In this document: positions 14,003 to 31,483 of the stretch, piece after piece | Layout: each line of letters starts with the position of its first letter | How positions within the stretch are numbered: position 1 is the stretch's first letter | Source of the DNA: Taklimakanibacter lacteus | GTDB taxonomy: Bacteria > Pseudomonadota > Alphaproteobacteria > Rhizobiales > Aestuariivirgaceae | DNA length: 64,000 bases | Reading direction: 5' to 3' | NCBI GenBank assembly: GCA_003576695.1 | Contig: QOZQ01000016.1 | Coordinates: forward strand, 1-64,000 | Notes under the pieces: model-generated | What the model was told of the DNA's origin: nothing | Databases searched by the model: none | The model's input: only the letters and a program-made list of their open reading frames with translations | Translations under genes and position numbers: made by a program

Positions 14003-14131
14003 ATGACCAGCAACCCCAAACCGCAGGGCGTGCCGCCCAACGAGCCGCGCCCGATGCCGGCACCTGAGCCGCCGCGTCCTTCGCCCATACCTGGCAGCCA
14101 GCCGGAAGAGCCCAAGCCGCGGCCGAATTGA
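14003..14131 (+). CDS. Small proline-rich protein, 42 residues
   Basis: A short frame from ATG 14003 with a strong CAGGAGG at 13991-13997. The protein is about one third proline with Glu, Asn and Ser, and has no hydrophobic segment, so it is probably unstructured and cytosolic. I do not recognise a family. The good ribosome site and spacing argue for a real gene, but it is short and compositionally simple. It lies 32 bases after the hydrolase gene and could be co-transcribed with it. Confidence 0.5.
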   Translation: MTSNPKPQGVPPNEPRPMPAPEPPRPSPIPGSQPEEPKPRPN

Positions 14132-14176
14132 GCTTCGACCATTGCCGGGGAAGGCCCGGCAGGCCATTGCCTTTGC

Positions 14177-14214
14177 CCATTTCCTTGTTGTACATTCGTT
14201 CAACAAGGAAATGG
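14177..14214 (+). promoter_or_regulatory. 38-bp inverted repeat, predicted operator shared with the 31421 operon
   Basis: Two perfect 14-base arms (14177-14190 and 14201-14214) flank a 10-base centre, TACATTCGTT. The inner 30 bases (14181-14210, arms TTCCTTGTTG and CAACAAGGAA) match the element at 31427-31456 at 27 of 30 positions, in the same orientation and at the same 5-base distance from the start codon. The right arm contains the AAGGAA ribosome site, so a bound repressor would block both transcription and translation start. The linked TetR gene at 23542 is the best candidate binder. Confidence 0.75.
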
Positions 14215-14215
14215 C

Positions 14216-16246
14216 ATGTTCAACCCCCGCTATGCAAGGCTGTTCGATGAGGTGAGGATCGGGCCGAAGACGGCGCCGAACCGCTTTTTCCAGACGCCGC
14301 ATGCGAGCGGCATGGGCTGGCGGGCGCCCAAGGCCTCAGCCGCTCTGCGCGGCATCAAGGCAGAGGGTGGCTGGGGCGTGGTCTCGACCGAATATTGCTC
14401 GATCCACCCGTCGTCCGATGACTTTCCCTTCGGCTATCTCTCGCTGTGGGACGAGGACGATGTGCGGGCCCTGGCCAGGATCGCCGATGCCATCCATGAG
14501 CATGGCAGCCTCGCCGCGGTCGAGCTCTGGCATGGCGGCTTCCATGCCAATAACCGGCTGACGCGCGAGCCCTTGCTCTCGCCCTCCGGCCAGCGCGCCC
14601 ATTTCATCCAGCCGATGGCGGCGCGTGCCATGGACAAGGCCGATATCGCCGAGTTCCGCGCCTGGCAGAGCGAGGCAGCGGCGCGCGCCAGGCGGGCAGG
14701 CTTCGATATCGTCTATGTCTATGCCGGCCATGATTATCTGCCGCTGCAGTTCCTGTCGCGGCGCACCAACCGGCGTCTCGACGAATATGGCGGCTCGATC
14801 GAGAACCGCACGCGGCTGATCAGCCAGATGATCGAGGATACGCGGGACGCCGTGAAGGGCGATTGCGCGGTGGCGCTTAGGCTCGCGGTCGATGAGCTGC
14901 ACGGGCCCCGGGGCATCACCCATGACGGGGAAGCGCGCGACATCGTCGCCACGCTCGCCGAGCTTCCCGATCTCTGGGATGTGAATGTGGCGGGGGCACT
15001 CGGAAATGATTCCAGGAGCGCCCGCTTCTCGGATGAAGGTTTCCAGGAAAGCTATGTCGCCTTCGTCAAGAAGCTGACCACGAAGCCGGTCGTAGGCGTC
15101 GGGCGCTTCACCTCGCCCGACATGATGCTGAGCCAGCTCAGGCGCGGCATCCTCGATTTCATCGGGGCGGCGAGGCCCTCGATTGCCGATCCGTTCCTGC
15201 CCCTCAAGATCAGGGAGGGACGCGAGGACGAGATCCGCGAATGCATCGGCTGCAATATCTGCCGGGCGGCGAACAACGAGGCCGTGCCGATCCGCTGCAC
15301 CCAGAATCCCACCATGGGCGAGGAATGGCGGCGCGGCTGGCATCCCGAGCAGATCGCGCCCGGACGCTCCGACAAGAGCGTGCTGGTGGTGGGCGCAGGT
15401 CCAGCCGGGCTTGAATGCGCCCTGGCGCTTGGCCGGCGCGGCCATCAGGTGGCGCTGGCCGAGGCCGGCCGGGAATTGGGCGGCCGCGTCCTGTTCGAGG
15501 CGCGCCTGCCGGGCCTCCAGAGCTGGATCCGGGTGCGCGACTGGCGCCAGCACATGATCGGCAAGCTCGCCAATATCTCGGTCTATCGCGAAAGCCCGAT
15601 GACCGCGGGAGACATCGCGGATTTCGGGGCCGATCATGTCGTCCTCGCCACAGGCGGAAGCTGGCGGCGCGACGGCATTGGCGGAGCCGGCGAGGAACCG
15701 CTCGCGCTTGCCGATGATGAGATGATCTTCACCCCCGATGATCTCGACCGGCTGCCGGTGAAGCCTGCATCGATCGTCATTTATGACGATGATCACTATG
15801 CGGTGGGCAGCGCTTTGGCCGAGATGCTGCGGGCGAGGGGCCACAGAGTGACCTATGCCACGCCGCTGCCGGTCGTCTCGTCCTGGACGCAAATGACCGA
15901 TGAGCAGGGATTCATCCAGGCACGGCTGATGACGATGGATGTCGGGCTCGTCCTGTCGCATCGTTTGATGGGTGTCGCCGGCGGAAAGCCGCAATTCGCC
16001 TGCATCCACACGGGACGGCCTTTGGAGCTTTCCTGCGATGCGCTGCTGCTGGTGACGGGCAGGGTGCCCCAGGATGCGCTCTATCACGCGCTCGCAGGCT
16101 TGATGCCCGACGGCGCGGTGAGCCGCATCGGCGACTGCCTGGCGCCGTCCCATATTGCCGATGCGGTGTTTTCCGGCCATCGCTTCGCGCGCGAATTCGG
16201 CGAGGACCGGACAGCCGTCCCCAGACGAGAAAGGCCAGAGCCATGA
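14216..16246 (+). CDS. Trimethylamine/dimethylamine dehydrogenase-like iron-sulfur flavoprotein
   Basis: A 676-residue protein of the old-yellow-enzyme-type TIM barrel plus [4Fe-4S] plus nucleotide-binding family. Cys343, 346, 349 and 361 (CIGCNIC...CTQN) form the cluster site, followed by GEEWRRGWHPE as in trimethylamine dehydrogenase. VLVVGAGPAGLE (about 388-399) is the dinucleotide fold. Tyr60 and the YVYAGHDYLPLQF active-site segment are kept. By comparison with trimethylamine dehydrogenase as I remember it, position 30, the flavin-linking Cys, is Ala here (TPHASG), and the Trp264 and Trp355 positions are Leu and Asn. FMN is therefore probably not covalently held, and the substrate is likely not trimethylamine. 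It overlaps the MttB-family gene by 4 bases. Confidence 0.87.
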   Translation: MFNPRYARLFDEVRIGPKTAPNRFFQTPHASGMGWRAPKASAALRGIKAEGGWGVVSTEYCSIHPSSDDFPFGYLSLWDEDDVRALARIADAIHEHGSLAAVELWHGGFHANNRLTREPLLSPSGQRAHFIQPMAARAMDKADIAEFRAWQSEAAARARRAGFDIVYVYAGHDYLPLQFLSRRTNRRLDEYGGSIENRTRLISQMIEDTRDAVKGDCAVALRLAVDELHGPRGITHDGEARDIVATLAELPDLWDVNVAGALGNDSRSARFSDEGFQESYVAFVKKLTTKPVVGVGRFTSPDMMLSQLRRGILDFIGAARPSIADPFLPLKIREGREDEIRECIGCNICRAANNEAVPIRCTQNPTMGEEWRRGWHPEQIAPGRSDKSVLVVGAGPAGLECALALGRRGHQVALAEAGRELGGRVLFEARLPGLQSWIRVRDWRQHMIGKLANISVYRESPMTAGDIADFGADHVVLATGGSWRRDGIGGAGEEPLALADDEMIFTPDDLDRLPVKPASIVIYDDDHYAVGSALAEMLRARGHRVTYATPLPVVSSWTQMTDEQGFIQARLMTMDVGLVLSHRLMGVAGGKPQFACIHTGRPLELSCDALLLVTGRVPQDALYHALAGLMPDGAVSRIGDCLAPSHIADAVFSGHRFAREFGEDRTAVPRRERPEP

Positions 16247-17757
16247 GCACGCCTGTGTCACGCCGCCGGCCGCGTCCGCAGCGGGTTCCGGGCGCGCTTC
16301 ACCAGCGGCCCTGGAAGCAATTCACGCTGCCCTACCGGCCGATCGAAGTGCTGAGCGCCGACCAGGTGGAAGCGATCCATGACACGGCGCTCACCATCCT
16401 CGAAGAGATCGGCATGCGGGTGCTGGAACCCAAAGCGCGGGCGCTTTACGCCTCCGCCGGGGCGACAGTGGACGAGGCGGAGCTGCGTGTGCGCTTCGAT
16501 CGCGCCATGATCACGGGGCTCGTCGCCAGGGCGCCGGCCGAATTCTCGCTCAAGGCGCGCAATCCCGCCAAGAATGTCAGGGTCGGCAACCGGCATGCGA
16601 TCTTCTCCTCGGTCGGGGGACCTGCCTTTGTGAGCGATCTCGAGCGCGGCCGGCGCGCCGGCACCTATGCCGAGATGTGCGATTATCTCAGGCTCATCCA
16701 GTCGCTCGACATATTGCATCAGGAGGGCGGCGGTCCGTTCGAGCCGCTCGATCTGCCGGCCGAGACGCGCCATCTCGATCTCTACTATGCCGAGATCACT
16801 TTGCTCGACAAGAACTGGCAGCCGCAGGGGCTGGGCGCCGATCGCGCCATCGATGCGCTCGAAATGGCGGCGATCTCGTTCGGCACCACGCGCGAAGGGC
16901 TGATCGACGATCCGGTCTTCACCTGCGTGATCAACACCAACTCGCCGCTGCAACTCGACATACCGATGGCGGAAGGTCTCATGACCTTCGCCGAGCATGG
17001 GCAGTGCGTGATCGTGACGCCGTTCACGCTGGCGGGCGCCATGTCGCCGGTGACGCTGGCGGGCGCGCTCGCGCAGCAGCATGCCGAGGCGCTGGCCGGC
17101 ATCGCGCTCACCCAGATCATCCGCCCCGGCGCTCCCGTGATGTATGGCGGCTTCACCTCCAATGTCGACATGAAGTCGGGCGCGCCCGCCTTCGGCACGC
17201 CCGAATATGCGCAGGCCGCGCAAGCCTCGGGCCAGCTGGCGCGCTTCATCGGCGTGCCCTTCCGCTCCAGCAATGTGACCGCCGCCAATGACGTCGATGC
17301 GCAGGCCGCCTATGAGAGCATGATGGCGCTGTGGGGCTCGATCATGGGCGGCGCCCATCTCGTGCTGCATGCGGCGGGCTGGCTCGGCGGCGGCCTCACC
17401 GCCTCCTTCGAGAAGCTGATCCTCGATGCCGACCTCCTGCAGATGATGGCGGCCTATTGCGAGCCTTTCCCGGTGACCGCCGAAACGCTGGCGCTCGATG
17501 CGGTGCGCGAGGTCGGCCCCGCCGGCCATTATTTCGGCACCGCCCACACGCTCGCGCGCTACGAGACGGCCTTCTACCAGCCGCTCATCTCGAACTGGGA
17601 CAATCACGACACCTGGATCGAGCGCGGCCGCGAAACGGCGCCCGCCAAGGCCAACCGGATCTGGAAGCAGATGCTGAAGGAATATCAGCAGCCCGCCATC
17701 GACCCCGGAATAGACGAGGCGCTTCGCGAGTATGTAGCTCGACGCAAACGCGGATAG
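16243..17757 (+). CDS. MttB-family (trimethylamine methyltransferase-like) protein without pyrrolysine
   Basis: A 504-residue member of the MttB superfamily (COG5598). Characterised non-pyrrolysine members demethylate quaternary amines such as glycine betaine, proline betaine or carnitine, passing the methyl group to a corrinoid protein. The frame has no internal TAG, so pyrrolysine is absent. Family blocks include LTILEEIGMRVLEPKARALY near 48, MYGGFTSNVDMKSGAPAFGTPEY and GAHLVLHAAGWLGGGL. It is translationally coupled (ATGA overlap) to the flavoprotein, which suggests sequential demethylation. No corrinoid protein or second methyltransferase is in the window; cobS and cobT indicate aerobic B12 synthesis. 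Confidence 0.87.
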   Translation: MSTPVSRRRPRPQRVPGALHQRPWKQFTLPYRPIEVLSADQVEAIHDTALTILEEIGMRVLEPKARALYASAGATVDEAELRVRFDRAMITGLVARAPAEFSLKARNPAKNVRVGNRHAIFSSVGGPAFVSDLERGRRAGTYAEMCDYLRLIQSLDILHQEGGGPFEPLDLPAETRHLDLYYAEITLLDKNWQPQGLGADRAIDALEMAAISFGTTREGLIDDPVFTCVINTNSPLQLDIPMAEGLMTFAEHGQCVIVTPFTLAGAMSPVTLAGALAQQHAEALAGIALTQIIRPGAPVMYGGFTSNVDMKSGAPAFGTPEYAQAAQASGQLARFIGVPFRSSNVTAANDVDAQAAYESMMALWGSIMGGAHLVLHAAGWLGGGLTASFEKLILDADLLQMMAAYCEPFPVTAETLALDAVREVGPAGHYFGTAHTLARYETAFYQPLISNWDNHDTWIERGRETAPAKANRIWKQMLKEYQQPAIDPGIDEALREYVARRKRG

Positions 17758-18071: not shown

Positions 18072-19214
18072 ATGCTCGTGCTTGGAACTCCTACTGAAGG
18101 CCATGACTGGCTCATTGGCGATGAGGCGCCTGATTTCATTGGCGGTTGGGGCGGCGATGATCTGATCATGGGCGGTGGCGGCGATGACCTGCTGCTCGGC
18201 AATCACGGCAATGACATCATCGTGCCGGGCGCCGGCCTCGACAGCATCTGGGGCGGGTTCCTCACCGTCGATTCCGGCAGCGATACAGTATCCTACGTGT
18301 TCTATGGCAGCGGCGTCTTCGCCAGCCTCGAGCTCGGCTATGGCTACGAAATGTCCGCCGGAATGGCCGACAAGGACACCTATCACGGCTTCGAGAATCT
18401 CTCGGGATCAAGCCATAGCGATATTCTCGTCGGCGATGGCGGCGCCAACCGGCTCTATGGCAATGGCGGCGATGACTGGATCGTCGGCCGGGCGGGCGCA
18501 GATACGATGAGCGGCGGCACCGGCAATGACTTTCTCCATGGCGGCGCCGGCGGCGACAATCTCGATGGCGGCAGCGGCATCGATACCATCACCTATAGCG
18601 ACTCGGCGTCCCATGTGCTCGTCAACCTGGCCAGCGGGACCGGGCTTTATGGCGATGCGCAAGGCGATGTCATCGAGGAAGTCGAGAATGTCCAGGGATC
18701 CGGCTACGATGATACGCTGATCGGCAATTCCGGCGCCAACAGGCTCATGGGCCTCAATGGCAGCGATACCCTGAACGGCTCGGGCGGCGATGACCGGCTC
18801 GAAGGCGGAAACGGCGCCGACACGCTCAATGGCGGTGCCAACAATGACACGCTGATCGGTGGCGCCAATCGCGACGTGATGACGGGCGGCAGCGGAGCCG
18901 ACAAGTTTGCCTATTTCAGCACTAGCGAGACCGGCATCGGGCCCTCGGCGCGCGACCTGATCACCGATTTCAGCCGCGCTCAGGGCGACAAGATCGATCT
19001 TTCCGGCATCGATGCCAATGTGAACCTGGCCGGCAACCAGGCCTTCGTGTTCATCGGCGATGACGGTTTCAACGACGTTGCCGGCGAGCTGCATTATGGC
19101 CATGACGACGGCAACACCATCATTTCCGGCGACACGGATGGCGACGGCAATTCGGATTTCCGCATCGAAGTGGCGGGGATCTTCGATCCCATCGCATCAG
19201 ATTTCGTCTTGTAG
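18072..19214 (+). CDS. Short RTX calcium-binding protein, type I secreted (copy 1)
   Basis: A 380-residue acidic protein without N-terminal signal. Residues 20-60, 120-180 and 215-285 carry glycine-aspartate nonapeptides (GGxGxDxLx, for example GGGGDDLLLGNHGND), which bind calcium and fold outside the cell. The C-terminal third resembles the serralysin C-terminal domain (ITDFSRAQGDKIDLSGID) and ends in DFVL, the usual type I signal. No protease, lipase or other catalytic domain precedes the repeats, so the role is unknown. The ribosome site AGGAGG lies just upstream. Copy 2 follows after 29 bases, then the secretion ATPase and adaptor genes, which very likely export it. Confidence 0.9.
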   Translation: MLVLGTPTEGHDWLIGDEAPDFIGGWGGDDLIMGGGGDDLLLGNHGNDIIVPGAGLDSIWGGFLTVDSGSDTVSYVFYGSGVFASLELGYGYEMSAGMADKDTYHGFENLSGSSHSDILVGDGGANRLYGNGGDDWIVGRAGADTMSGGTGNDFLHGGAGGDNLDGGSGIDTITYSDSASHVLVNLASGTGLYGDAQGDVIEEVENVQGSGYDDTLIGNSGANRLMGLNGSDTLNGSGGDDRLEGGNGADTLNGGANNDTLIGGANRDVMTGGSGADKFAYFSTSETGIGPSARDLITDFSRAQGDKIDLSGIDANVNLAGNQAFVFIGDDGFNDVAGELHYGHDDGNTIISGDTDGDGNSDFRIEVAGIFDPIASDFVL

Positions 19215-19243
19215 GTTGGCTGCTAGCAACACAGGAGGCAGAT

Positions 19244-20386
19244 ATGCTCGTATTCGGAACTCAAACGGAAGGCGCCGATTGGCTGATCGGCGATGACGCC
19301 GATGATTTCATCGGCGGCTGGGGCGGCGATGACCTGATCATGGGCGGCGGCGGCGATGACCTGCTGCTCGGCAATCACGGCAATGACGTGATTGTTCCGG
19401 GCGCCGGCCTCGACAGCATCTGGGGCGGATTCCTCAATGGCGATTCCGGCAATGACTCGGTGTCCTATGGCTTCTATGGCAGCGGCGTCTACGCCAATCT
19501 CGATCTTGGCTATGGCTACGAAATGTCGGTCGGAATGGCCGACAAGGACACCTATCACGGGATCGAGAATATCACCGGTTCCAACCATAACGACATCCTC
19601 GTCGGCGACGGTGGCGCCAACAAGCTGTGGGGCAATGGCGGCGATGACTGGATCGTCGGTCGCGGCGGCGCCGACAATCTGAATGGCCAGGGCGGCAATG
19701 ACTTCCTCCATGGCGGCGCCGGCGCCGACAATATCAATGGCGGGTCCGGCACCGACACGGCGACGTATAGCGACTCGGCTTCCTATGTGGTCGTCAACCT
19801 GGCCAGCGGATCCGGGCTTCATGGCGATGCGCAAGGCGATGTCCTCGCCGAGGTGGAGAATGTGCAAGGGTCGGCCTTTGACGATACCCTGATCGGCAAT
19901 TCCGGCGCCAACAAGCTCATGGGCCTCAATGGCAGCGATACCTTGATTGGTTCAGGCGGCGACGACCGGCTGGAAGGCGGGAACGGCACGGACACGCTCA
20001 ATGGCGGCGCCAACAATGACATACTGGTCGGCGGCGCCAATCGCGATGTGATGACGGGTGGCACGGGTGCCGACAAGTTCGTCTATTTCAGCACCAGCGA
20101 GACCGGCATCGGGCCCTTGTCGCGCGACCTGATCACCGATTTCAGCCGCGCGCAGGGCGACAAGATCGATCTCTCCGGGATCGATGCCAATGAGAATCTC
20201 GCCGGCAACCAGGCCTTCGTCTTCATCGGCGATGACGGCTTCAACGACGTGGCCGGCGAGCTGCATTACGGCCATGACGACGGCAATACGATCATCTCCG
20301 GCGACACGGATGGCGACGGCAATTCGGATTTCCGCATCGAGGTGGCGGGGATTTTCGATCCGGTCGCGGCCGATTTCATCCTGTAG
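19244..20386 (+). CDS. Short RTX calcium-binding protein, type I secreted (copy 2)
   Basis: Tandem paralogue of the gene at 18072. It is also exactly 380 residues, aligns without gaps, and differs at about 54 positions by my count, so about 86% identity. Even the leader is duplicated: GGCTGCTAGCAACA plus AGGAGGCAGA precedes both genes. Changes concentrate in the middle (about residues 65-215), while the N-terminal repeat block and the C-terminal secretion region are almost unchanged. The secretion ATPase gene begins 31 bases downstream. The function beyond calcium-dependent folding and export is not known. Confidence 0.9.
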   Translation: MLVFGTQTEGADWLIGDDADDFIGGWGGDDLIMGGGGDDLLLGNHGNDVIVPGAGLDSIWGGFLNGDSGNDSVSYGFYGSGVYANLDLGYGYEMSVGMADKDTYHGIENITGSNHNDILVGDGGANKLWGNGGDDWIVGRGGADNLNGQGGNDFLHGGAGADNINGGSGTDTATYSDSASYVVVNLASGSGLHGDAQGDVLAEVENVQGSAFDDTLIGNSGANKLMGLNGSDTLIGSGGDDRLEGGNGTDTLNGGANNDILVGGANRDVMTGGTGADKFVYFSTSETGIGPLSRDLITDFSRAQGDKIDLSGIDANENLAGNQAFVFIGDDGFNDVAGELHYGHDDGNTIISGDTDGDGNSDFRIEVAGIFDPVAADFIL

Positions 20387-20417
20387 GGCCGGCGCCAAGC
20401 GAGATCAGGGGCGGGAC

Positions 20418-22178
20418 ATGGCCAGGACTTCCAGCAACCAGGATCACGGACGGCACCGCTCCTCTCTTGCGGCGGTGCTGTCCGGCTTCCGCAGCGCTCT
20501 TATCGGCATCGGGGCGATGAGCGGGGTGGTGAATATCCTCGCCCTCACCGGCTCGTTCTTCATGCTGCAGGTCTATGACCGGGTGGTGCCGGGGCGCAGC
20601 GTGCCGACACTTGTCGGCCTCATCCTCCTCGCAGGCCTGCTCTTCGCCTTTCAGGGACTTCTCGATTTCATCAGGTCACGCCTTCTGGTGCGCATCGGCA
20701 TGGCCGTCGATGCCCGCATCAGCGCGCCGGTCCATGCCATGCTGATGCAGCTGCCGCTGCGGCAGCGATCGAGCGGCGACGGCCTGCAGCCGCTGCGCGA
20801 TCTCGACCAGCTGCGCTCCTATCTCTCGGGCGCCGGACTCACGGCGCTGTTCGACCTGCCCTGGATGCCGCTCTATCTCGTCATCTGCTTCCTGTTCCAT
20901 GTCTGGATCGGCGTCGCGGCGCTCCTCGGCGTGCTCCTCCTTTTCGGCCTTACGCTGCTTGCCGAATTGCGCACGCGGGAGCCGACGAAGATCGCCAATG
21001 TCCATTCGGCGGGCCGCAGCGCGCTTGCCGAGGCGAGCCGGCGCAATGCCGAGGCCGCCCGGGCCATGGGCTTTGCCGGCCGGATCGGCGAGCGCTGGGC
21101 GGCGATCAATGACGACTATCTCGCGGCCCATGCCCAGGCGAGCGATGTGGCGGGATCGCTCGGGACAGTCTCGAAGACCGTGCGCATCGCGCTGCAATCG
21201 GCGATGCTGGCGGTCGGCGCCTATCTCGTCATCCTTGGGGAAGCGAGCGGCGGCATCATGATCGCGAGCTCGATCATGATGAGCCGGGCGCTGGCGCCCA
21301 TCGAGCTCGCCATCGCGCATTGGAAGAGCTTCATCTCGGCGCGCCAGAGCTGGGGCCGGCTGGCCGGCCTCGTGGCGGCGGCGCCGCAAAGCGAAGCGAG
21401 CGTCGCGTTGCCAGCGCCGCAGGCGACCCTCAGCGTCGAAGCTGTCAGCGTCACGCCGCCGGGCGACCGCCGCCTGGTGGTGCAAGAGGTGAGCTTCAGC
21501 CTCGCCAAAGGATCGGGACTCGGCGTCATCGGGGCCAGCGCCTCGGGAAAATCCTCGCTCATCCGCGCCATCACCGGCCTGTGGGTGCCGGCCCGTGGCG
21601 CCGTCCGGCTCGATGGTGCGGCCCTCGAGCAATGGGATGGCGAAGCGCTCGGCCGTCATGTCGGCTACCTGCCGCAGGACGTGCAGCTCTTCGACGGCAC
21701 GATCGCCGAGAATATCGCGCGTTTCGAGACCGACGCGCCGGCCGAAAAGGTCCTGAAGGCGGCGCAGATGGCCGGCGTCCATGACCTCGTGGTGCATCTG
21801 CCCGAGGGCTATGGCACGCGGATCGGCGAGGCGGGCTCGCTGCTCTCGGCCGGCCAGCGCCAGCGCATCGCTTTGGCGCGCGCCCTTTATGGCGATCCCT
21901 TCCTGGTCGTGCTGGATGAGCCCAATTCCAATCTCGACGGCGAGGGCGAGGCGGCGCTGGCGCGCGCCATTGCCAGCGTGCGCGAACGACAGGGTATCGT
22001 GATCGTCGTGGCGCACCGGCCAAGCGCGCTGACGAGCCTCGATCAGCTGCTCGTCATGGCGCAGGGCCGCGCCCAGGCCTTTGGCCCAAAGGATGAGGTG
22101 TTGAGCCGGATGGCGCGGCCGAGGCCCGCCCCGATGTCACTGGTGGTCAATCCCGAACAGGAGAGGGCTGCGTCATGA
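20418..22178 (+). CDS. Type I secretion system ABC transporter ATPase (PrtD-like)
   Basis: Inner-membrane ABC exporter half-transporter, 586 residues from ATG 20418 (the frame is open further upstream, inside the RTX gene). The N-terminal half has the membrane domain, with GSFFMLQVYDRVVPGRSVPTL, typical of PrtD/HasD-type exporters. The C-terminal ATPase has Walker A GASASGKSS (372-380), a signature of the form LSAGQRQRIALARAL and Walker B VVLDEPNSNLD. There is no C39 peptidase domain, as expected for RTX substrates with C-terminal signals. It overlaps the adaptor gene by 4 bases. The outer-membrane TolC partner must be encoded elsewhere. Confidence 0.92.
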   Translation: MARTSSNQDHGRHRSSLAAVLSGFRSALIGIGAMSGVVNILALTGSFFMLQVYDRVVPGRSVPTLVGLILLAGLLFAFQGLLDFIRSRLLVRIGMAVDARISAPVHAMLMQLPLRQRSSGDGLQPLRDLDQLRSYLSGAGLTALFDLPWMPLYLVICFLFHVWIGVAALLGVLLLFGLTLLAELRTREPTKIANVHSAGRSALAEASRRNAEAARAMGFAGRIGERWAAINDDYLAAHAQASDVAGSLGTVSKTVRIALQSAMLAVGAYLVILGEASGGIMIASSIMMSRALAPIELAIAHWKSFISARQSWGRLAGLVAAAPQSEASVALPAPQATLSVEAVSVTPPGDRRLVVQEVSFSLAKGSGLGVIGASASGKSSLIRAITGLWVPARGAVRLDGAALEQWDGEALGRHVGYLPQDVQLFDGTIAENIARFETDAPAEKVLKAAQMAGVHDLVVHLPEGYGTRIGEAGSLLSAGQRQRIALARALYGDPFLVVLDEPNSNLDGEGEAALARAIASVRERQGIVIVVAHRPSALTSLDQLLVMAQGRAQAFGPKDEVLSRMARPRPAPMSLVVNPEQERAAS

Positions 22179-23541: not shown

Positions 23542-24168
23542 TCAGCGCTTGAGCGGCCCCAGTCGTGCTTCCAGCACATCAAAGACGGCGGCGCGCGCGG
23601 TGTCGCGGTTGACGACGGAGGAATCGAGGCACCATTCGATCCACAGGCCGTCGATGAGCGCGATGACGGTCATGGCGAGCGCCTCACTGTCGAGCCTGAC
23701 CTTGCGGGTCTTGGCGATCTCGCTCAGCGCATCGCCGATCGCCTTGCGATAGGCGTCGTAGGATTTGCGGTGCGAAGCCTTGAGCTTAGGATTGGTGGCG
23801 ACCTCGCCCCACAGCGCCAGCCAGGCCCGCAAGCTTGATTTGGAGAACATCGGCGGGCGGAACATGGTGTCGATGACGGCGGCAAGGCGATCCTCGGCGG
23901 TGCCTTCGAAGAACAGGGTCTCGCGGCCCGCCGCCAGCATCGACTGGGTCATCGCCTCATAGACCTCGATCAGGAGGCCTCCGATGCCGTCGAAATGATG
24001 GTTGATGAGCCCGCGCGAGACTTTCGCCTCGCGCGAGATGCGATCGACAGTGAAAGCCGCGATCCCGCCTTCGGCCAGGCAGCGGATCGCGGCATCGATG
24101 AGCATCTGCCGGCGCAGATCGGCCTCCACGCGCACGAAGCGCGGTTTCCTCCGAGCGGCAGTCGTCAT
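23542..24168 (-). CDS. TetR-family regulator, BetI-like
   Basis: A 208-residue one-domain-plus-HTH regulator. The N-terminal helix-turn-helix (about 20-65) reads LIDAAIRCLAEGGIAAFTVDRISREAKVSRGLINHHFDG, with the GLINHHF recognition segment seen in BetI-type proteins; the ligand domain follows with the KTRKVRLDSEALAMTVIALIDGLWIEWCLD block. It is the last gene of the operon that starts at 31421 and lies 6 bases from the binding-protein gene. I infer that it represses its own operon through 31427-31456 and the 14216 operon through 14181-14210. BetI itself senses choline; the ligand here is unknown. Confidence 0.87.
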   Translation of the reverse strand: MTTAARRKPRFVRVEADLRRQMLIDAAIRCLAEGGIAAFTVDRISREAKVSRGLINHHFDGIGGLLIEVYEAMTQSMLAAGRETLFFEGTAEDRLAAVIDTMFRPPMFSKSSLRAWLALWGEVATNPKLKASHRKSYDAYRKAIGDALSEIAKTRKVRLDSEALAMTVIALIDGLWIEWCLDSSVVNRDTARAAVFDVLEARLGPLKR

Positions 24169-24174
24169 GTCACC

Positions 24175-25740
24175 TCACAGTTTCTTGAAGCCGACGGGAT
24201 TGGGATAGCCGTCGGCCAGGATTTCCGGCTCGAAAGTGTTCTTATGGATGGCGACGAAAGGCTCATGGCAGACGAAGATGAAGCCGCCCGATTCCTCCAT
24301 CAAGTCTTCCATGCGGTTATACATCTCCTTGCGTTTGGCCTGATCGGGCTCCGACAAGGCCTTGTTGTAGAGCTCCTCGAACTCCGGGCTGTCGAAGGCT
24401 GACCAGTTATAGACGCCGATCTGATCGGGCCGGAACCAGACGAGATTCTCGGACGGGTCGATGCCGCCGGCAAAGGCCATCAGCACCAGCTCCAGGTTCT
24501 TGTAGCCATCGCCCTGGGTCTTGTCGCCCAGGACCCAGTAAGCGCCTTCATCATAGGGCTGGATCTCGATCGTTATTCCCGCCTGCGCCATCGTCGCCTG
24601 GATGACCTGGCAAGCGGTCATGTAGCGCGAGTCGTTGAGGGTGGCGAGGTTGAGCTTGAGGTCGCTCGCGCCCGCCTCGGCAAGAAGCGCCTTGGCCTTC
24701 TCATAGTCGGGCTTGTCGATGATGTTCTTCGCCCTGGTGAAAGCGGTGCCCGGCTGCACCACGCCGGTCGAGCGCGGCACCAGGCCCTCATAGGTGCCGG
24801 CGATGACCTGCTCGCCATCGAAGGCATATTGCAAGGCCTGGCGCACCTTGGGATCCTTGAGCCTGGGATTGTCGATATTGATGGTGAGCCAGACATAGCG
24901 GGTCGACTGCGCCTCGATGAGCGTCGTGTCGGGCAGGGGCTTTTCCTTCAGGCCCTTGGCGGCGGCGGCCGAGACGCGGCAATAGTCGAAGGCCTTGGCC
25001 TCATAGGCGAGCTGGGCGGCCTGGTCGTCCTCGACGATATTGACCTCGACGCTGCCGAATTCGGGCCTGGGGCCGGGCCAGTCGGGATTGGCCTTGAAGG
25101 TCATTTTCTGCTTGGGCTCCCATTTGTCGAGCAGATAGGGCCCGCATTGCGCCGGGATCTCGGTCGTATATTTGCCGCCGGCCTTCTCGACCGCCGCCTT
25201 GCACACGACATGGCCGCCATAATAGGGCAGCGACGCCAGCCAGATCGGCTGGAACGGCTCCTTCAGATGGATGATGCCGGTGCGCTCGTCCTTGACCTCG
25301 ACCGAATCGAGCTTCTCGAACTGGTATTTCCACGGCGATTCATTCTTGGGATCGGCGATGCGCTCGAAGGAATATTTGACGTCTTCCGGCGTCACCGCGC
25401 CGAAGCCGCCGGTCCATTTGAGGCCCGGCCTCAGTGTAAAGGTGATGGTCTTCGGATCGGTCTGCTCGATCGTCTCGGCGCCCCAGGGCGAAATCGCATT
25501 GCCCTTGCGCATATCGGACAGGCGCACCAGCGAGATCAGCACGCAGCGATTGGTGATGTCCTCGAGATTGCCGATCTCGAAAGCGGGATCGAGCCTGGTG
25601 ATGTCGCTGTCGCTTCTGATGCGCAGGAGATCGCCCTCCGCCGCGAAACTCAGGCGGGATTGCGGCAGCACCATTCCGGCGCTGAGAAAGGCCGAGAGCT
25701 GCAGGAAGCCACGCCGGTCGAAATGTCCTTTGATTTTCAT
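24175..25740 (-). CDS. Dipeptide/oligopeptide-type ABC transporter binding protein
   Basis: Periplasmic family-5 solute-binding protein (SBP_bac_5), 521 residues. The N-terminus carries a twin-arginine-like signal (DRRGFLQL about 8-15, then a hydrophobic run ending near AAEG). Family blocks are PWGAETIEQTDPKTITFTLRPGLKW, VTPEDVKYSFERI and KVRQALQYAFDGEQV. Such proteins bind peptides, opines or other amine-containing compounds. It lies downstream of the two ATPases and two permeases and directly before the TetR gene. The ligand is not predictable by eye, but the co-regulated hydrolase and demethylase-like genes suggest an N-methylated or peptide-linked compound. Confidence 0.9.
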   Translation of the reverse strand: MKIKGHFDRRGFLQLSAFLSAGMVLPQSRLSFAAEGDLLRIRSDSDITRLDPAFEIGNLEDITNRCVLISLVRLSDMRKGNAISPWGAETIEQTDPKTITFTLRPGLKWTGGFGAVTPEDVKYSFERIADPKNESPWKYQFEKLDSVEVKDERTGIIHLKEPFQPIWLASLPYYGGHVVCKAAVEKAGGKYTTEIPAQCGPYLLDKWEPKQKMTFKANPDWPGPRPEFGSVEVNIVEDDQAAQLAYEAKAFDYCRVSAAAAKGLKEKPLPDTTLIEAQSTRYVWLTINIDNPRLKDPKVRQALQYAFDGEQVIAGTYEGLVPRSTGVVQPGTAFTRAKNIIDKPDYEKAKALLAEAGASDLKLNLATLNDSRYMTACQVIQATMAQAGITIEIQPYDEGAYWVLGDKTQGDGYKNLELVLMAFAGGIDPSENLVWFRPDQIGVYNWSAFDSPEFEELYNKALSEPDQAKRKEMYNRMEDLMEESGGFIFVCHEPFVAIHKNTFEPEILADGYPNPVGFKKL

Positions 25741-25757: not shown

Positions 25758-26762
25758 TTAGAGTTGGCGCGTTTCCTTGTCGCCAAAGTCGGACAACTTT
25801 GGCGGGAAACGCTCGTTGAGTGGAAAATGGCAGCGCACGCTGCGACCGCCTGTAGATTTGGTGAGAGATGGCGCCTCGCTGCGGCAGCGCGCTTGCGCAT
25901 GCGGGCAGCGGGTGTGGAATTCGCAGCCCGAAGGCCTTCTGAGGATGCTCGGCACCTCGCCGGTGATGGCGAGCGATTGCCGGCGCCGGCGTGGATCGGG
26001 AATGGGCTCGGACGCAATGAGGGATGCCGTATAGGGATGGCGGGCGCCGGCGAAGACTTCCGCCGTCGGGCCCTCCTCGACGATGCGGCCCAGATACATG
26101 ATGGCGATGCGGTCGGAGACGTGGCGGATCATCGCCAGATTGTGGGTAACGATGATGTAGGACAGCGAGAGCTCGGCCTTGAGCCTCGTCATCAGATTGA
26201 GAATCTCGCCCTGGATCGACACATCGAGGCCGGCGGTCGGCTCATCGGCGATGACGAGGGCGGGTCGCAGCGCCAAGGCGCGCGCCACGCCGGCGCGGCG
26301 CGCCTGGCCGCCCGACAATTCATGCGGATAGCGGCTGGCGAATTCCTTCGGAAGCCCGACCAGCGCCAGCAATTCCTCGGCCGCGGCACGCCGCGACGTC
26401 ATGGCGACGCCGTGAATGAGGAAAGGCTCGGTGATGGCCGAGCCGATGGCAAGCCGCGGGCTCAGGGAGGCGATCGGATCCTGGAACATCATCGCCGTCT
26501 TGCGCCGCAGCCTGCGGAAACTGTCGACCGGCCTGCCCTCGAAGCGGATTTCCCCCCTGGCGCGCGACACGAGGCCGAGAAGGGCGCGCGCCAGGGTCGT
26601 CTTGCCCGATCCCGATTCGCCCACCAGGCCGAGCGTCTTGCCCGGGCGCACCGACACCGACACGTCCTCGAGGATGGCAAGACGATGATGGCCAAGGCCG
26701 AGGAAGCCGCCGGGGGCGCGGAAATTCACCGCCAGACCTTCGGCTTCGATGAGGGGCGTCAT
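25758..26762 (-). CDS. Dipeptide-type ABC transporter ATP-binding protein (DppF-like)
   Basis: Cytoplasmic ATPase, 334 residues: Walker A GESGSGKTT (48-56), signature LSGGQARRAGVARAL, Walker B VIADEPTAGLD, and the C-terminal oligopeptide-transporter Cys-rich segment (CEFHTRCPHAQARC). The start overlaps the stop of the DppD-like gene. The last residues, PPKLSDFGDKETRQL, are encoded by a copy of the 60-base palindromic repeat also found at 42329 and 42777. The insertion has therefore supplied a new C-terminus and stop. The catalytic part is complete. Confidence 0.92.
   Translation of the reverse strand: MTPLIEAEGLAVNFRAPGGFLGLGHHRLAILEDVSVSVRPGKTLGLVGESGSGKTTLARALLGLVSRARGEIRFEGRPVDSFRRLRRKTAMMFQDPIASLSPRLAIGSAITEPFLIHGVAMTSRRAAAEELLALVGLPKEFASRYPHELSGGQARRAGVARALALRPALVIADEPTAGLDVSIQGEILNLMTRLKAELSLSYIIVTHNLAMIRHVSDRIAIMYLGRIVEEGPTAEVFAGARHPYTASLIASEPIPDPRRRRQSLAITGEVPSILRRPSGCEFHTRCPHAQARCRSEAPSLTKSTGGRSVRCHFPLNERFPPKLSDFGDKETRQL
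25764..25816 (-). repeat. Palindromic repeat (family of 42329 and 42777) inside the 3' end of the ATPase gene
   Basis: The centre CCTTGTCGCCAAAGTC and ACTTTGGCGGGAAACG, preceded by GTTGGCGCG, aligns with the copies that flank fdxA. Most of it lies within the coding region of the DppF-like gene and runs close to its stop codon at 25758-25760. Confidence 0.75.
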
Positions 26763-27607
26763 CGGGGCCTCGCCTGCATGAATGTGGCGCGCTCAGCATC
26801 GGTGATGACCGGCAAATAGCCGGCTCGCTCATGCAGCCGGGCTGGGTCGCAGGCGAGAAGGGCGCGTGTATAGGGGTGACGAGGCTCGTGGAAGATGTCG
26901 TCGACCGCGCCTTCCTCCACCACTTCGCCACGATACATCACATAGACGCGGTCGCAGAGCTCGGCGACGACGCCGAGATGATGGGTGACGATGAGGATGC
27001 CGCCGCCATAATCCTGGCGGAGCTCACGGAACAGATGAATGATCTGCGCCTCCATCGTCACATCGAGCGCTGTCGTCGGCTCGTCCGCGATGAGCAGGCT
27101 CGGATTGACGAGGAGGGCTGCGGCGATGGCGGCGCGCTGGCGCATGCCGCCCGACATTTCATGCGGGTAAGAGTTCGCCCGCAAGGCCGGATCGGGGATG
27201 CCGACGCGGGCCAGCATGGCGACGGCGCGGGCATATTTCTCGCGTGCCTTGCCCGGCATGCGGCTCTGGAAATCGACGAGCTGGTCGCCAATGGTGAGGA
27301 CCGGATTGAAGGCGGTCATCGGGTCCTGAAACACCATGGCGATCTCATCGCCGCGCAGGATCTGCTGCGCCTGTTTGCGCCCGCTGGTGACGCTTTCATT
27401 CTTGAAGGCGATGTCGCCGCCGAGAATGCGGGCACCGATCGGCAGCAGGCCGGTGATGGCCGAGGCGAGGGTCGACTTGCCGCTGCCCGATTCGCCAACA
27501 AGGCCCACCGCCTCGCCCAGATGGACATCGAGATTGGCGCCGCGCACCGCCTGGACGTGGCCGGCGTAGTCGATGGTGAGGTCGCGGATGCTGAGGAGGG
27601 CCGTCAT
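26759..27607 (-). CDS. Dipeptide-type ABC transporter ATP-binding protein (DppD-like)
   Basis: First of the paired ATPases, 282 residues. Walker [10 protein letters not shown] (38-46), signature [15 protein letters not shown] (slightly divergent from LSGGQ, common in this class), Walker [12 protein letters not shown] and the H-loop [12 protein letters not shown] are all present. It overlaps the downstream ATPase gene by 4 bases and the upstream permease gene by 4 bases, so it is translationally coupled within the operon. It is somewhat shorter than typical DppD because the C-terminal Cys-rich tail is reduced. Confidence 0.9.
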
Positions 27608-28458
27608 GAAGCTCTCCGCCCTTTGAGCTTGGGATCGAGCGCGTCGCGCAAGGCTTCACCGAAGAAGGTGAAGCCCAGTGTCGCTATGACAAGCGGAATG
27701 CCGGCGGCGATGACCAGCGAGGGATTGGTCCGCAGCGACACATAGCCGTCATTGAGGATGGTGCCCCAGCTCGGCGTCGGCGGCTTGACGCCCAGGCCCA
27801 GATAGGAGAGGGCCGCTTCCAGGGCAACCACGGTCGGAATGTCCATGCTGACCAGGATGACCAGCGGACCCAGTACATTGGGCAGAAGATGGATGCCGAC
27901 GATGCGCGGCAGGCTGGCGCCCATGGACTGCTCGGCCAGGATGAATTCACTGCGCCTGAGAGAAAGTGTCTGAGCGCGCACGAGGCGGCCGTAGACGGGA
28001 ATGGAGATGAGCGCGATGACGAAGATCAGCGTGCCGGTGCCTGGTCCCAAGATGACGATGACGGTGAGAGCGAACAGAATGAGCGGGATAGCGCTCAAGG
28101 AATCGAAGAAGAAGATCAGGACCGCATCGAGCCAGCGCGGCCCGTAGCCCGCCAGGATGCCGAGGATGAGGCCGATGAAGGCGCCGATGCCGATCGAGAA
28201 CACCGCGATCCCCATGGCGACGCGGGCGCCATGGATGATGCGCGACAGCGTATCGCGGCCAAGCTGGTCGGTGCCGAGCCAGTGGGCGGCGGAGGGGCCC
28301 TGCAGCTTGTTGAGCACATCGATCCTGGCCGGATCATAAGGCGAGATCGCATCGGCGAAGAGGGCGGCGCCGATCACGATGACGACCAGCACCAGGCCCA
28401 GAAGGCCCAGGGGATCGCGCGTGACGCGCTTCAATATCTCAAGCACCCCGGAAGGCAT
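27604..28458 (-). CDS. Dipeptide-type ABC transporter permease (DppC-like)
   Basis: Inner-membrane permease, 284 residues, with about six hydrophobic segments. The N-terminal PYDPARIDVLNKLQGPSAAHWLGTDQLGRDTLSRIIHGAR block is the OppC/DppC hallmark, and the cytoplasmic coupling loop is seen in SEFILAEQSMGASLPRIVGIHLLPN. The gene start overlaps the end of the DppB-like gene by 20 bases. It pairs with DppB to form the channel. Confidence 0.92.
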   Translation of the reverse strand: MPSGVLEILKRVTRDPLGLLGLVLVVIVIGAALFADAISPYDPARIDVLNKLQGPSAAHWLGTDQLGRDTLSRIIHGARVAMGIAVFSIGIGAFIGLILGILAGYGPRWLDAVLIFFFDSLSAIPLILFALTVIVILGPGTGTLIFVIALISIPVYGRLVRAQTLSLRRSEFILAEQSMGASLPRIVGIHLLPNVLGPLVILVSMDIPTVVALEAALSYLGLGVKPPTPSWGTILNDGYVSLRTNPSLVIAAGIPLVIATLGFTFFGEALRDALDPKLKGRRAS

Positions 28459-29392
28459 CCCTGATCCTCGGATCGATCCGCGCGATCAGCAGATCGGCGG
28501 CAATGGTGAGCGTGACATAGATACCGGTCATCACCAGCACGGTGCCCATGACGACCGGATAGTTGCGCAAATTGACGGCGGCGGTGACGAGCTTGCCGAT
28601 GCCGGGCCGGGAGAAGATCACCTCGACGAAGACGGCAGAGGAGATCAACCCGCCGAGGCTCACGGCCAGCAGCGAGAGCGTCGGGATGAGGGCAATGCGC
28701 AGGCCATATTTGGTGACGATCTTCCATTCCGGGACGCCGAAGGCGCGCGCGGTGCGGATATGGGGCTCACCCATGACGTCGAGCATGGAGGCGCGGACCA
28801 GGCGCGCCAGATACCCCACCCAGGTGAAGCCGATGGCGAAAGCAGGCAGGATCAGCGCACGGATTTGGCTGCCGATATCGCCCGGATCGCCATCGCCAAT
28901 GGCGGGAAGCCAGTTGAGCTGCACCGCGAAGATCAAAAGCGCATAGATGGCGACGACATAATAGGGAAGCGAGATGACGCTGACCGAGAGCAGGCTTGCG
29001 GCGCGATCGACCCAGGTGCCGCGCTTGAGCACGGCGAGACAACCGAGCGGGATGGCAAGCAATGTCGCCCAGCCGAGGCCGACGAGGCACAGGATCAGCG
29101 TATTGGGCAGGACTTCCCAGATCTCGGTCGCGACCGGACGGTTGGAGATGACATCGATGCCGAGATTGCCCGACAGCACATTGACGAAGAAGTTATAGAC
29201 CTGGACCAGATAGGGCTGGTCGAGGCCCATCTCGCGGGTCAGCCGGTCGATCATTTCCTGGGTGGCGCGGGGACCGAGGGCGGCGCGCGCCGGATTGCCC
29301 GGCACGATGAAGACCGCCGCATACATCGCGAACATCACACCGATGAGGATCAGAAGACCGAGACCTATGCGTTTGATCGTGTAAGCGAGCAT
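28439..29392 (-). CDS. Dipeptide-type ABC transporter permease (DppB-like)
   Basis: Inner-membrane permease, 317 residues, with the family N-terminus (IKRIGLGLLILIGVMFAMYAAVFIVPGNPA) and about six membrane segments. The coupling loop reads MGEPHIRTARAFGVPEWKIVTKYGLR. It follows the hydrolase gene after 16 bases and begins the transporter part of the operon, in the order permease, permease, ATPase, ATPase, binding protein, regulator. Confidence 0.92.
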   Translation of the reverse strand: MLAYTIKRIGLGLLILIGVMFAMYAAVFIVPGNPARAALGPRATQEMIDRLTREMGLDQPYLVQVYNFFVNVLSGNLGIDVISNRPVATEIWEVLPNTLILCLVGLGWATLLAIPLGCLAVLKRGTWVDRAASLLSVSVISLPYYVVAIYALLIFAVQLNWLPAIGDGDPGDIGSQIRALILPAFAIGFTWVGYLARLVRASMLDVMGEPHIRTARAFGVPEWKIVTKYGLRIALIPTLSLLAVSLGGLISSAVFVEVIFSRPGIGKLVTAAVNLRNYPVVMGTVLVMTGIYVTLTIAADLLIARIDPRIRDAFRGA

Positions 29393-29408: not shown

Positions 29409-31421
29409 TCAACAGAAATCGCGTTTTATGACGCGGGTGTCGCCCCTGCTGTGGACGAGGCGGCCCCGCTCGCGCGCCTCGATCAGCCAGGTGAGATAGA
29501 AATGGTCCTGATCGGCGGTAAGCTCGGTGCGGCTCTTCGCTTCCACGTCGCAGGGACCGCTTCTGATCGCCCAGGCATATTCGGTGACGATCTTGGCGGT
29601 CAGCGGATCATCGGGATGGATGGTGAAAGTGTCGGTGTTCCAGGAGGATGTCGTGATGGCGCGGTCATCGATCGAATGGGTGCCGTTATCGGTCCTGAGC
29701 CGGATCGTGCGGATGCCGGTTGCAAGGTCGTCCTCGACGGTTTTGGCCGTGCTGCCGGCAATGACCTCGGTCGATGCCACGGGCATCGAGATCTCCGCCG
29801 GCCCGAAGGCAACATGGCGGTCTTCATCGCCTGGCGGGCGGACCGGCAACTTGATTGTACAGACCCCGCTCCGGATCGTCGCGGTGGCGAGCGTCGGCTG
29901 CGGCCACAGAATGAACCAGTGCTGGGTGGCGAGCGCCAGCCTGATGCGATGGCCCTTGGGGATCGTCCTGGCGAAATCATTGAGCCTGATCGTTACCTTG
30001 AAGGGCTCATTCACCGGGCAAGCGGCCGGGAATTCGTGGCTGTCGCGATGGCTGAGATTGAGCACGCCATAGGTCATGAGCGCCGACGTGCCGTCCGGAT
30101 AGACATCGCACAGGCGCGCGGCGAGATTGACCTTGGGCACATCGACGCTGAGCTCGAGCGTGATCTCGGGCGCGCCGACAAGCGTCAGGTCCTCGGCCAG
30201 CGGCTCGGTGTCGAAGCACAGAGCCTGGCCATCCTCGCGGCGCTGATCGATGGCGAGATCGGGCGAGGTGCCGCCATAGCCGCCCCAGCGGCCGCAATCA
30301 GTGCCGGCCGTGGCGGGCGACCGCACCGAGAGGATCGATCCGGTCTCGGGCCTGGCGCCCAGGCTGTTCGGGTTGAGCCAGCGCGTCTGCCACTGGATGC
30401 GCGGGCTTGGCCATGAGGCTTCGGCGATCCAGCGTCCTTCATGTGATTTGTACCAGGGACGCGGCCGCTCCTCGCCGATCGCATAGAGGCGGTATTGCGG
30501 CTCGTCCATGATGCCCGTCGCTTCACCGGCCAGCCAGTATCTCCACCAGCGCAGCGCCTCCTGCAGATAGCCGATCTGCGGGCCCGGATCGCCGCGGCAC
30601 GGGAAGGCATGCGTCCATGGACCCATGATGGCAAGCCTGGGCGAGGTCAGTCCTTCGAGAAGGCGCGGCACCGAGTTCGAATAGCTGTCCTCCCAGCCGC
30701 ATACCGCCAGCACGGCGCATTCGATCGCCGAGAAGTCCTCTGAGACCGAGCCTTGCTTCCAATAAGCATCGCGGCGCTGATGCAAAAGCCAGTGCTCCGA
30801 CCAGGAGCGGTTGGCGTCAAGGCGCTTCAGCCACATGTCGCGCCAGGCACGCCCTACGATCTGCGGGTCGGGCGGCATGGCGTTCTTCACCAGCATGAAA
30901 TTCGACCACATCTCATTCTCGGTGATGAGGGCGCCGCCCATATAGTGGACGTCATCGGCATAGCGGTCATCGCTCGAGCACAAAGTGATGATCGCCTTGA
31001 GCGCCGGGGGACGGCGTGCCGCCACCTGCAATGAGTTGAAGCCGCCCCAGGAAATGCCGGTCATGCCGACATGGCCGTTGCACCAGTTCTCGGCGGCCAG
31101 ACGGGCAATGATCTCGCAGGCATCTTCCTGCTCGCGCGGAAGATATTCATCGGCAAGGAGGCCGCCCGAGTCGCCCGAGCCCCTGATATCGACGCGGCAG
31201 CAGGCGATGCCATAGCCCGCCCAATAGGGATGCATATCGAGATCGCGGAAGACGGTGCCGTCCCGCCTGCGATAGGGGATCATCTCGACGACGACCGGCA
31301 CAAGGTCTTTCGTCTTCGGCTTCCACAAGGTAGCGGCGATGCGTGTGCCGTCGGCGAGCGTGATCCAGAAAGGATCGACGACCTCCACCGCGAAGGGGAA
31401 TTCCTGCCTGATGACCGCCAT
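29409..31421 (-). CDS. CocE/NonD-type (peptidase S15 family) hydrolase
   Basis: A 670-residue serine hydrolase. The alpha/beta-hydrolase part shows CRVDIRGSGDSGG (75-87) and the nucleophile motif GISWGG (122-127, Ser124), with GPWTHAF later. The C-terminal part (about 400-560) has the jelly-roll X-Pro dipeptidyl-peptidase C-like domain (APEITLELSVDVPKVNLAARLCDVYPDG). Relatives cleave esters such as cocaine or acyl amides and X-Pro peptides. No signal peptide is visible, so it acts in the cytoplasm on imported material. It is the first gene of the operon; the predicted operator 31427-31456 ends 5 bases before ATG 31421 and contains its ribosome site. Confidence 0.88.
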   Translation of the reverse strand: MAVIRQEFPFAVEVVDPFWITLADGTRIAATLWKPKTKDLVPVVVEMIPYRRRDGTVFRDLDMHPYWAGYGIACCRVDIRGSGDSGGLLADEYLPREQEDACEIIARLAAENWCNGHVGMTGISWGGFNSLQVAARRPPALKAIITLCSSDDRYADDVHYMGGALITENEMWSNFMLVKNAMPPDPQIVGRAWRDMWLKRLDANRSWSEHWLLHQRRDAYWKQGSVSEDFSAIECAVLAVCGWEDSYSNSVPRLLEGLTSPRLAIMGPWTHAFPCRGDPGPQIGYLQEALRWWRYWLAGEATGIMDEPQYRLYAIGEERPRPWYKSHEGRWIAEASWPSPRIQWQTRWLNPNSLGARPETGSILSVRSPATAGTDCGRWGGYGGTSPDLAIDQRREDGQALCFDTEPLAEDLTLVGAPEITLELSVDVPKVNLAARLCDVYPDGTSALMTYGVLNLSHRDSHEFPAACPVNEPFKVTIRLNDFARTIPKGHRIRLALATQHWFILWPQPTLATATIRSGVCTIKLPVRPPGDEDRHVAFGPAEISMPVASTEVIAGSTAKTVEDDLATGIRTIRLRTDNGTHSIDDRAITTSSWNTDTFTIHPDDPLTAKIVTEYAWAIRSGPCDVEAKSRTELTADQDHFYLTWLIEARERGRLVHSRGDTRVIKRDFC

Positions 31422-31426
31422 GGCGT

Positions 31427-31456
31427 TTCCTTGTTGAACAATCGTACAACAAGGAA
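31427..31456 (-). promoter_or_regulatory. 30-bp inverted repeat, predicted operator of the hydrolase-transporter operon
   Basis: Arms TTCCTTGTTG (31427-31436) and CAACAAGGAA (31447-31456) flank AACAATCGTA. Read in gene direction it matches 14181-14210 at 27 of 30 bases and sits at the same distance from the ATG. On the plus strand it also contains TTGTTGAACAA, which fits a GntR/FadR-type half-site, so a GntR regulator is an alternative to the linked TetR protein. Confidence 0.75.
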
Positions 31457-31483
31457 CAAGATGCTTTCAACGGTTTTTGCGGA

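Follow-up and report, generated by a model that had tools for sequence, protein, structure and literature searches.

Two operons that lie 17 kb apart are each preceded, directly before the first start codon, by nearly the same inverted repeat. What is this element, and does one regulator act at both copies? The question concerns a stretch of 64,000 nucleotides of Taklimakanibacter lacteus DNA (the window), for which the original prediction had proposed a regulator shared by the two operons.

Two palindromes and the genes behind them

The pattern TTCCTTGTTG-N10-CAACAAGGAA is present in the 64-kb window with 0 mismatches at 14181-14210 and at 31427-31456. Read in gene direction, the two copies are identical at 27 of 30 bases and differ at 3, and the 3' edge of each lies 5 bases before an ATG (14216 on the plus strand; 31421 on the minus strand), so that the inverted repeat, the degree of agreement and the spacing from both start codons were all as originally described. 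In 100 dinucleotide shuffles of the window the pattern was never found, even at 3 mismatches; a shorter 16-base version, with 3 mismatches allowed, gave a shuffle mean of 0.10 and a largest count of 2. The perfect 14-base arms that had been claimed for the first copy are likewise present (14177-14190 and 14201-14214). Outside TTGTTG/CAACAA, 8 bases pair perfectly in this copy and 4 in the second, and the flanks beyond the two palindromes are different sequence. The features are collected in Table 1.

Table 1. Genes, palindromes and predicted promoter elements of the two operons, in window coordinates
Feature	Position	Strand	Basis or remark
Predicted -35 hexamer TTGCCT	14167..14172	+	Below the promoter tool's threshold
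Full palindrome, perfect 14-base arms	14177..14214	+	Outer 8 bases of each arm lineage-specific
Putative operator core TTGTTGTACATTCGTTCAACAA	14185..14206	+	Before flavoprotein gene
Predicted -10 hexamer TACATT	14191..14196	+	Inside putative operator core
Amine-dehydrogenase-like flavoprotein, FMN and pyridine nucleotide-disulphide oxidoreductase domains	14216..16246	+	PF00724, PF07992
MTTB-family methyltransferase	16243..17757	+	PF06253, 648 bits
BetI-like TetR, last gene of hydrolase operon, recognition helix VSRGLINHHF	23542..24168	-	PF00440, PF13977
Family 5 solute-binding protein	24175..25740	-	PF00496
Oligopeptide/dipeptide-type transporter ATPase	25758..26762	-	PF00005, PF08352
Putative transporter ATPase, fourth operon gene	26759..27607	-	Position and conserved gene order
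Putative transporter permease, third operon gene	27604..28458	-	Position and conserved gene order
Putative transporter permease, second operon gene	28439..29392	-	Position and conserved gene order
S15/CocE-NonD alpha/beta hydrolase, first gene of operon	29409..31421	-	
30-base palindrome of the original prediction	31427..31456	-	
Putative operator core TTGTTGTACGATTGTTCAACAA (gene direction)	31431..31452	-	Before S15 hydrolase gene
Predicted -10 hexamer TACGAT	31441..31446	-	Inside putative operator core; promoter tool
Predicted -35 hexamer TTGAAA	31465..31470	-	Promoter tool

The closest solved chains to the flavoprotein include histamine dehydrogenase and trimethylamine dehydrogenase. Its gene overlaps that of the MTTB-family methyltransferase, a protein that stays under the trimeth_pyl cut-off (292 of 525 bits). 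The genome holds 7 MTTB-family matches (L090-L096), this one included, and a single match to the B12-binding family PF02607; the protein with that lone match is a candidate corrinoid partner for the methyltransferase. In the hydrolase operon the TetR gene starts 6 bases after the solute-binding protein gene, and its product contains the TetR_N helix-turn-helix (PF00440, 47.4 bits against a cut-off of 24). Type I secretion genes and genes for two RTX-repeat proteins occupy the space between the two operons (18072-23482). To judge by the protein families, a methylated-amine compound may be taken up, hydrolysed, and oxidised or demethylated by these gene products, and the TetR would be its sensor.

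The core in related genomes and its candidate regulator

An exact scan of a one-genome-per-species collection for TTGTTGWACRATYGTWCAACAA returned 37 stretches, where fewer than 1 would be expected by chance (an estimate with equal base frequencies). Assigned by reading, 26 of the 37 precede a flavoprotein homologue (mostly in Mesorhizobium, also in Aestuariivirga and in one gammaproteobacterial assembly), 1 an S15 homologue, 8 a Rieske-type oxygenase (L031, L033, L037, L041, L044, L048, L051 and L055) and 2 other genes. (Two of the eight Rieske genes were searched against family models and six were assigned by likeness; L053, L058, L060 and L063 were taken as the same loci as L070, L072, L073 and L086.) The core lies 10-47 bases from the listed start codon in the relatives versus 9 in the window. 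Five of the eight Rieske stretches hold a TetR of 31.6-34.4% identity. One of the two other stretches is on a Prevotella contig (L040:7864-7885), where the core, possibly a convergent operator, stands 6 bases before a TetR gene whose product matches no BetI model; in the second, from an alphaproteobacterium, it lies between a solute-binding-protein-like gene and a gene named by eye as transporter-like.

A sample selected by the TetR, and not by the motif, consisted of 18 of 69 family genomes (E <= 1e-30) and 13 of 397 order genomes (E <= 1e-40), which makes 26 genomes in all. For 16 of these the fetched stretch took in the 5' end of the flavoprotein or S15 gene and the sequence before it; for the other 10 it did not cover these. 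Within about 200 upstream bases, the closest match to the core had 0-5 mismatches at all 16 flavoprotein genes (0 in six, 1 in one) and at all 11 S15 genes (0 in three), as against 6 of 134 upstream regions with 5 or fewer mismatches for 12 other genes of the same stretches. Two of the flavoprotein matches are weak: that of L084 has 5 mismatches and lies 106 bases upstream, with 2% of shuffles as good, and that of L079 is really the S15 site of a shared intergenic region, in which another site, with 3 mismatches, lies nearer the flavoprotein gene. In related genomes, then, the motif is found before the same two genes and only rarely upstream of others. The S15 operon order is conserved, with the TetR gene last, and a gene of the cluster adjoins the TetR gene in 23 of the 26 genomes (the exceptions being L106, L108 and L110). 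Since the flavoprotein and S15 genes are divergent neighbours in several family members, with one degenerate site each, and since in L069 the two operons point toward each other with no secretion or RTX genes in between, the 17-kb separation seen in the window looks like a matter of rearrangement.

Within the 397-genome order sample, the exact core occurs in 4 genomes (reversed control: 1) and the TetR homologue in 13; all 4 are among the 13, and the other 9 are without an exact core. The hypergeometric p is 7e-7, or 2e-5 when the genome of the window is left out, values that overstate independence given that the genomes are related. (In G104, one of the four, the exact core and the TetR are on separate contigs, and the TetR contig ends inside the flavoprotein gene.) The recognition helix varies together with the site. 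VSRGLINHHF is found in 7 of 7 genomes with a core of 0-1 mismatch at the flavoprotein or S15 promoter (G000, which is the genome of the window, L069-L073 and L109), and the 9 of 9 genomes that have other helices and an assembled promoter (L077, L079-L085 and L111) show sites of 2-5 mismatches only. The same helix is present in L106, where a site of 1 mismatch lies about 100 bases beyond the TetR gene; in L074 and L107, where the promoter is absent from the assembly; and in all nine motif-selected Mesorhizobium-type stretches that include a TetR (L027-L030, L034, L036, L042, L057 and L059). Where the TetR lies near a Rieske gene, its helix reads VS[VL]GLINHHF or is more distant.

Could the palindromes nonetheless be operators of a different TetR, or of some other regulator, with the linked TetR a bystander? 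A loose first look at the genome of the window gave 43 TetR-like candidates, and other TetRs, that of L040 included, stand beside the same core. Because it is found beside TetRs of 31.6-34.4% identity, beside other helices and beside the L040 TetR without a BetI match, the core, to judge from these sequences, is not exclusive to one TetR subfamily or to this regulator. Against the bystander explanation, however, stand the co-occurrence of the core with the linked TetR in the order sample, the adjacency of TetR and cluster genes in 23 of 26 genomes and the covariation of recognition helix and operator, and we consider it unlikely. A regulator common to both operons had been proposed from the window itself, with the TetR encoded at 23542-24168 as the one to test; such a regulator, most likely this TetR, now has the support of phylogenetic footprinting, co-occurrence and helix-operator covariation.

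Predicted promoter elements within the palindrome

The promoter tool by itself finds the element at 31470-31441, whereas its scan of 14050-14260 gave nothing above threshold, the 14167-14196 element matching at 8 of 12 positions. All 4 S15 sites, all 8 Rieske sites and all 7 flavoprotein sites of the window's layout have a TTG 16-18 bases upstream of the gene-strand TAC at core position 7; the 7 flavoprotein sites had been grouped by this -35/-10 layout, but neither the S15 nor the Rieske sites had. The opposite strand has TAC at that place in none of these 19 sites, and TTG with that spacing in 4 of the 7 grouped flavoprotein sites. Among the remaining 22 flavoprotein sites, 20 of which are from Mesorhizobium by record name, the -35 is about 10 bases further out and the -10 (TATGCT in most) touches the left edge of the core, so that the promoter shift between the two flavoprotein-site layouts is about one helical turn.

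Because the predicted -10 hexamer is within the core, transcripts should start inside the palindrome. The palindrome had been said to cover the ribosome site. This holds in the window, where AAGGAA is in the right arm; in the relatives the site is not always covered, and the palindrome overlaps the predicted -10 hexamer too. Because of this overlap, the palindrome should block transcription initiation, beyond covering the ribosome site.

These elements bear on the idea that translation of both mRNAs is controlled by a hairpin in the leader, in which the Shine-Dalgarno sequence AAGGAA would be masked. The full palindrome, if transcribed, folds well (z -5.6 for 14165-14230; -2.3 for 31407-31472, minus strand), AAGGAA stands in the right arm 5 bases before each ATG, and the outer arms are often complementary without having a common sequence. 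The conserved -35/-10 layout, however, puts the start inside the palindrome, such that about the right arm only would be transcribed, and this arm alone folds no better than shuffles (-2.9 and -6.3 kcal/mol). Moreover, the core is kept as sequence, beyond mere pairing, and with a core that ends 10-47 bases before the listed start codon the ribosome site of the relatives is not always covered. Despite the good full-length fold, the predicted start makes control by such a hairpin very unlikely, and blocked initiation at a repressor-bound core is the reading that we retain.

In the whole 5.78-Mb genome (24 contigs, 5,779,501 bases) the core TTGTTG-N10-CAACAA is found at these two places only, with 0 in the reversed control, and TTGTTGWACNNNNGTWCAACAA, searched at 3 mismatches, has 2 further places versus 1 in the reversed control. 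The 131-base promoter region, searched against plasmids, had no match. The original prediction would have yielded to a generic repeat at many unrelated sites; the whole-genome search gave two core copies only. A dispersed repeat (REP-like or a miniature mobile element) that stands before two genes by chance, as the near-identical copies inside one window might suggest, can be set aside with near certainty in view of these genome-wide counts, the differing flanks outside the palindrome and the core kept before the same genes in other families.

Outer arms and the proposed regulon

Outside the core, perfect outer arms are frequent, and their sequence differs by lineage and site (window 14177-14214; L027-L062, L070, L072 and L073). 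The flanks outside TTGTTG/CAACAA pair perfectly over 11 bases in L072 and L073 and over 11 and 7 bases at the two sites of LHD-90; among 21 Mesorhizobium-type flavoprotein sites, 9 have 8-10 perfect flank pairs and 12 are without a perfect run of 8 or more. The arm sequences are unrelated between lineages, and those at two sites of one genome also differ (L070; L038 and L047 of one strain). The window has CCATTTCC as a perfect flanking arm, and some of the Mesorhizobium strains have GCGAATATGC; one strain has TCGCAATTGGC at one of its two sites and AAACGCC at the other, and in another Mesorhizobium the arm at the second site is ATTCTC.

In an arm test with 23 hand-chosen sites, one representative per lineage and context, 5 of the 23 had perfect runs of at least 6, and any of 20,000 arm re-pairings had at most 2. 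A looser statistic, total pairs at outer positions 3-10, is much weaker (60 of 184 versus a mean of 48.8, with 929 of the 20,000 re-pairings reaching that value). Non-cluster sites have no arm excess, 19% being complementary versus 45% for 12 flavoprotein and S15 sites.

Since the outer arms differ within one genome, their being read by the TetR is rejected as the cause of their symmetry; base reading by one repressor fails to explain it. In Escherichia coli, quasipalindrome template switching makes imperfect inverted repeats more perfect, according to a published study (PMC7202029). Such switching during replication, which would copy one flank onto the other with a sequence varying by lineage and site, is the candidate cause that we favour. 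A further step, which we put forward tentatively and hold to be rather less than an even chance, is that the 22-24-base core fixed by the repressor seeds fold-back template switching, which would lengthen the palindrome without the repressor reading the added bases. The same pattern would be expected if selection favoured a DNA cruciform or hairpin.

Taken together, the sites, their uniqueness in the genome, their conservation at the same promoters, the co-occurrence with the TetR, the helix-operator covariation and the promoter layout argue that both palindromes are very probably operators of the TetR encoded at 23542-24168, with both operons switched together and the TetR repressing itself; binding, repression, ligand and substrate are what we infer from sequence. 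A sigma-70-type promoter would have its -10 hexamer (TACRWT) within the core consensus TTGTTG-WAC-NNNN-GTW-CAACAA and its -35 (TTGNNN) 18 bases upstream of that hexamer; with a TetR dimer bound to the core, RNA polymerase would be excluded. Because the TetR gene is the last of the hydrolase operon (with which it is presumably co-transcribed), the repressor would also act on its own gene. The ligand is probably an amine that is methylated or quaternary, or else a conjugate of such an amine; once taken up, it would cause the repressor to leave both sites, so that the transporter-hydrolase and flavoprotein-methyltransferase operons would be made together. The task of such a regulon would probably be the breakdown of a methylated amine compound.

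Local TetR-family repressors of catabolic operons have a linked regulator, a palindromic operator on the -10 region and autoregulation. The same layout is expected here, with no difference in principle: the palindromic site is at the target promoters, that of the regulator's own operon included if co-transcription holds. BetI is a choline-responsive TetR repressor, and the linked TetR shares with it the C-terminal domain PF13977 and an operator that is palindromic and lies over promoter elements. The protein nevertheless differs from BetI in scoring 106.6 bits with TIGR03384 versus a cut-off of 201.3 and 102.1 of 118 with PRK00767, and by family search the target genes found in the two operons are not bet genes. 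For Ruegeria pomeroyi BetI1, the betI box is published as ATTGACG*CGTCAAT (PMC12442346); by our own comparison its TTG.ACG-like half-site resembles that of the core. The box in this form is absent from both cores, which read TTGWACNNNNGTWCAA, and the core here is longer (22 bases, with outer TTGTTG/CAACAA), each half-site having one base more.

The target enzymes belong to the families of the MttB-superfamily and histamine/trimethylamine-dehydrogenase-type amine modules, with the difference that here the genome's single PF02607 match is on another contig. A further likeness is to the Rieske N-demethylases (CntA carnitine monooxygenase and GbcA glycine betaine monooxygenase), the same core standing before the 8 of 37 Rieske-type genes, which are in other genomes and none in this window. 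One Rieske-type protein, compared with solved structures, had carnitine monooxygenase as its best match, and two compared with NCBIfam had the GbcA model as their best (140.6 and 158.5 of 670 bits, far under the cut-off).

As an element, a TetR operator is of an ordinary kind. The regulon is, at the level of sequence, well supported, and a literature search found no description of this regulator, operator or target set. Through this assignment the MTTB/amine-dehydrogenase-like cluster of Mesorhizobium and related Alphaproteobacteria acquires a regulator, its operator and a target set of two operons, and with them a direct route to the substrate of the cluster, by way of the compound that releases the repressor. 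The arm pattern is a clean natural data set on operator palindromes that outgrow the apparent need of the protein, and the core before Rieske-type oxygenases suggests that BetI-like regulators of methylated-amine breakdown form a wider set.
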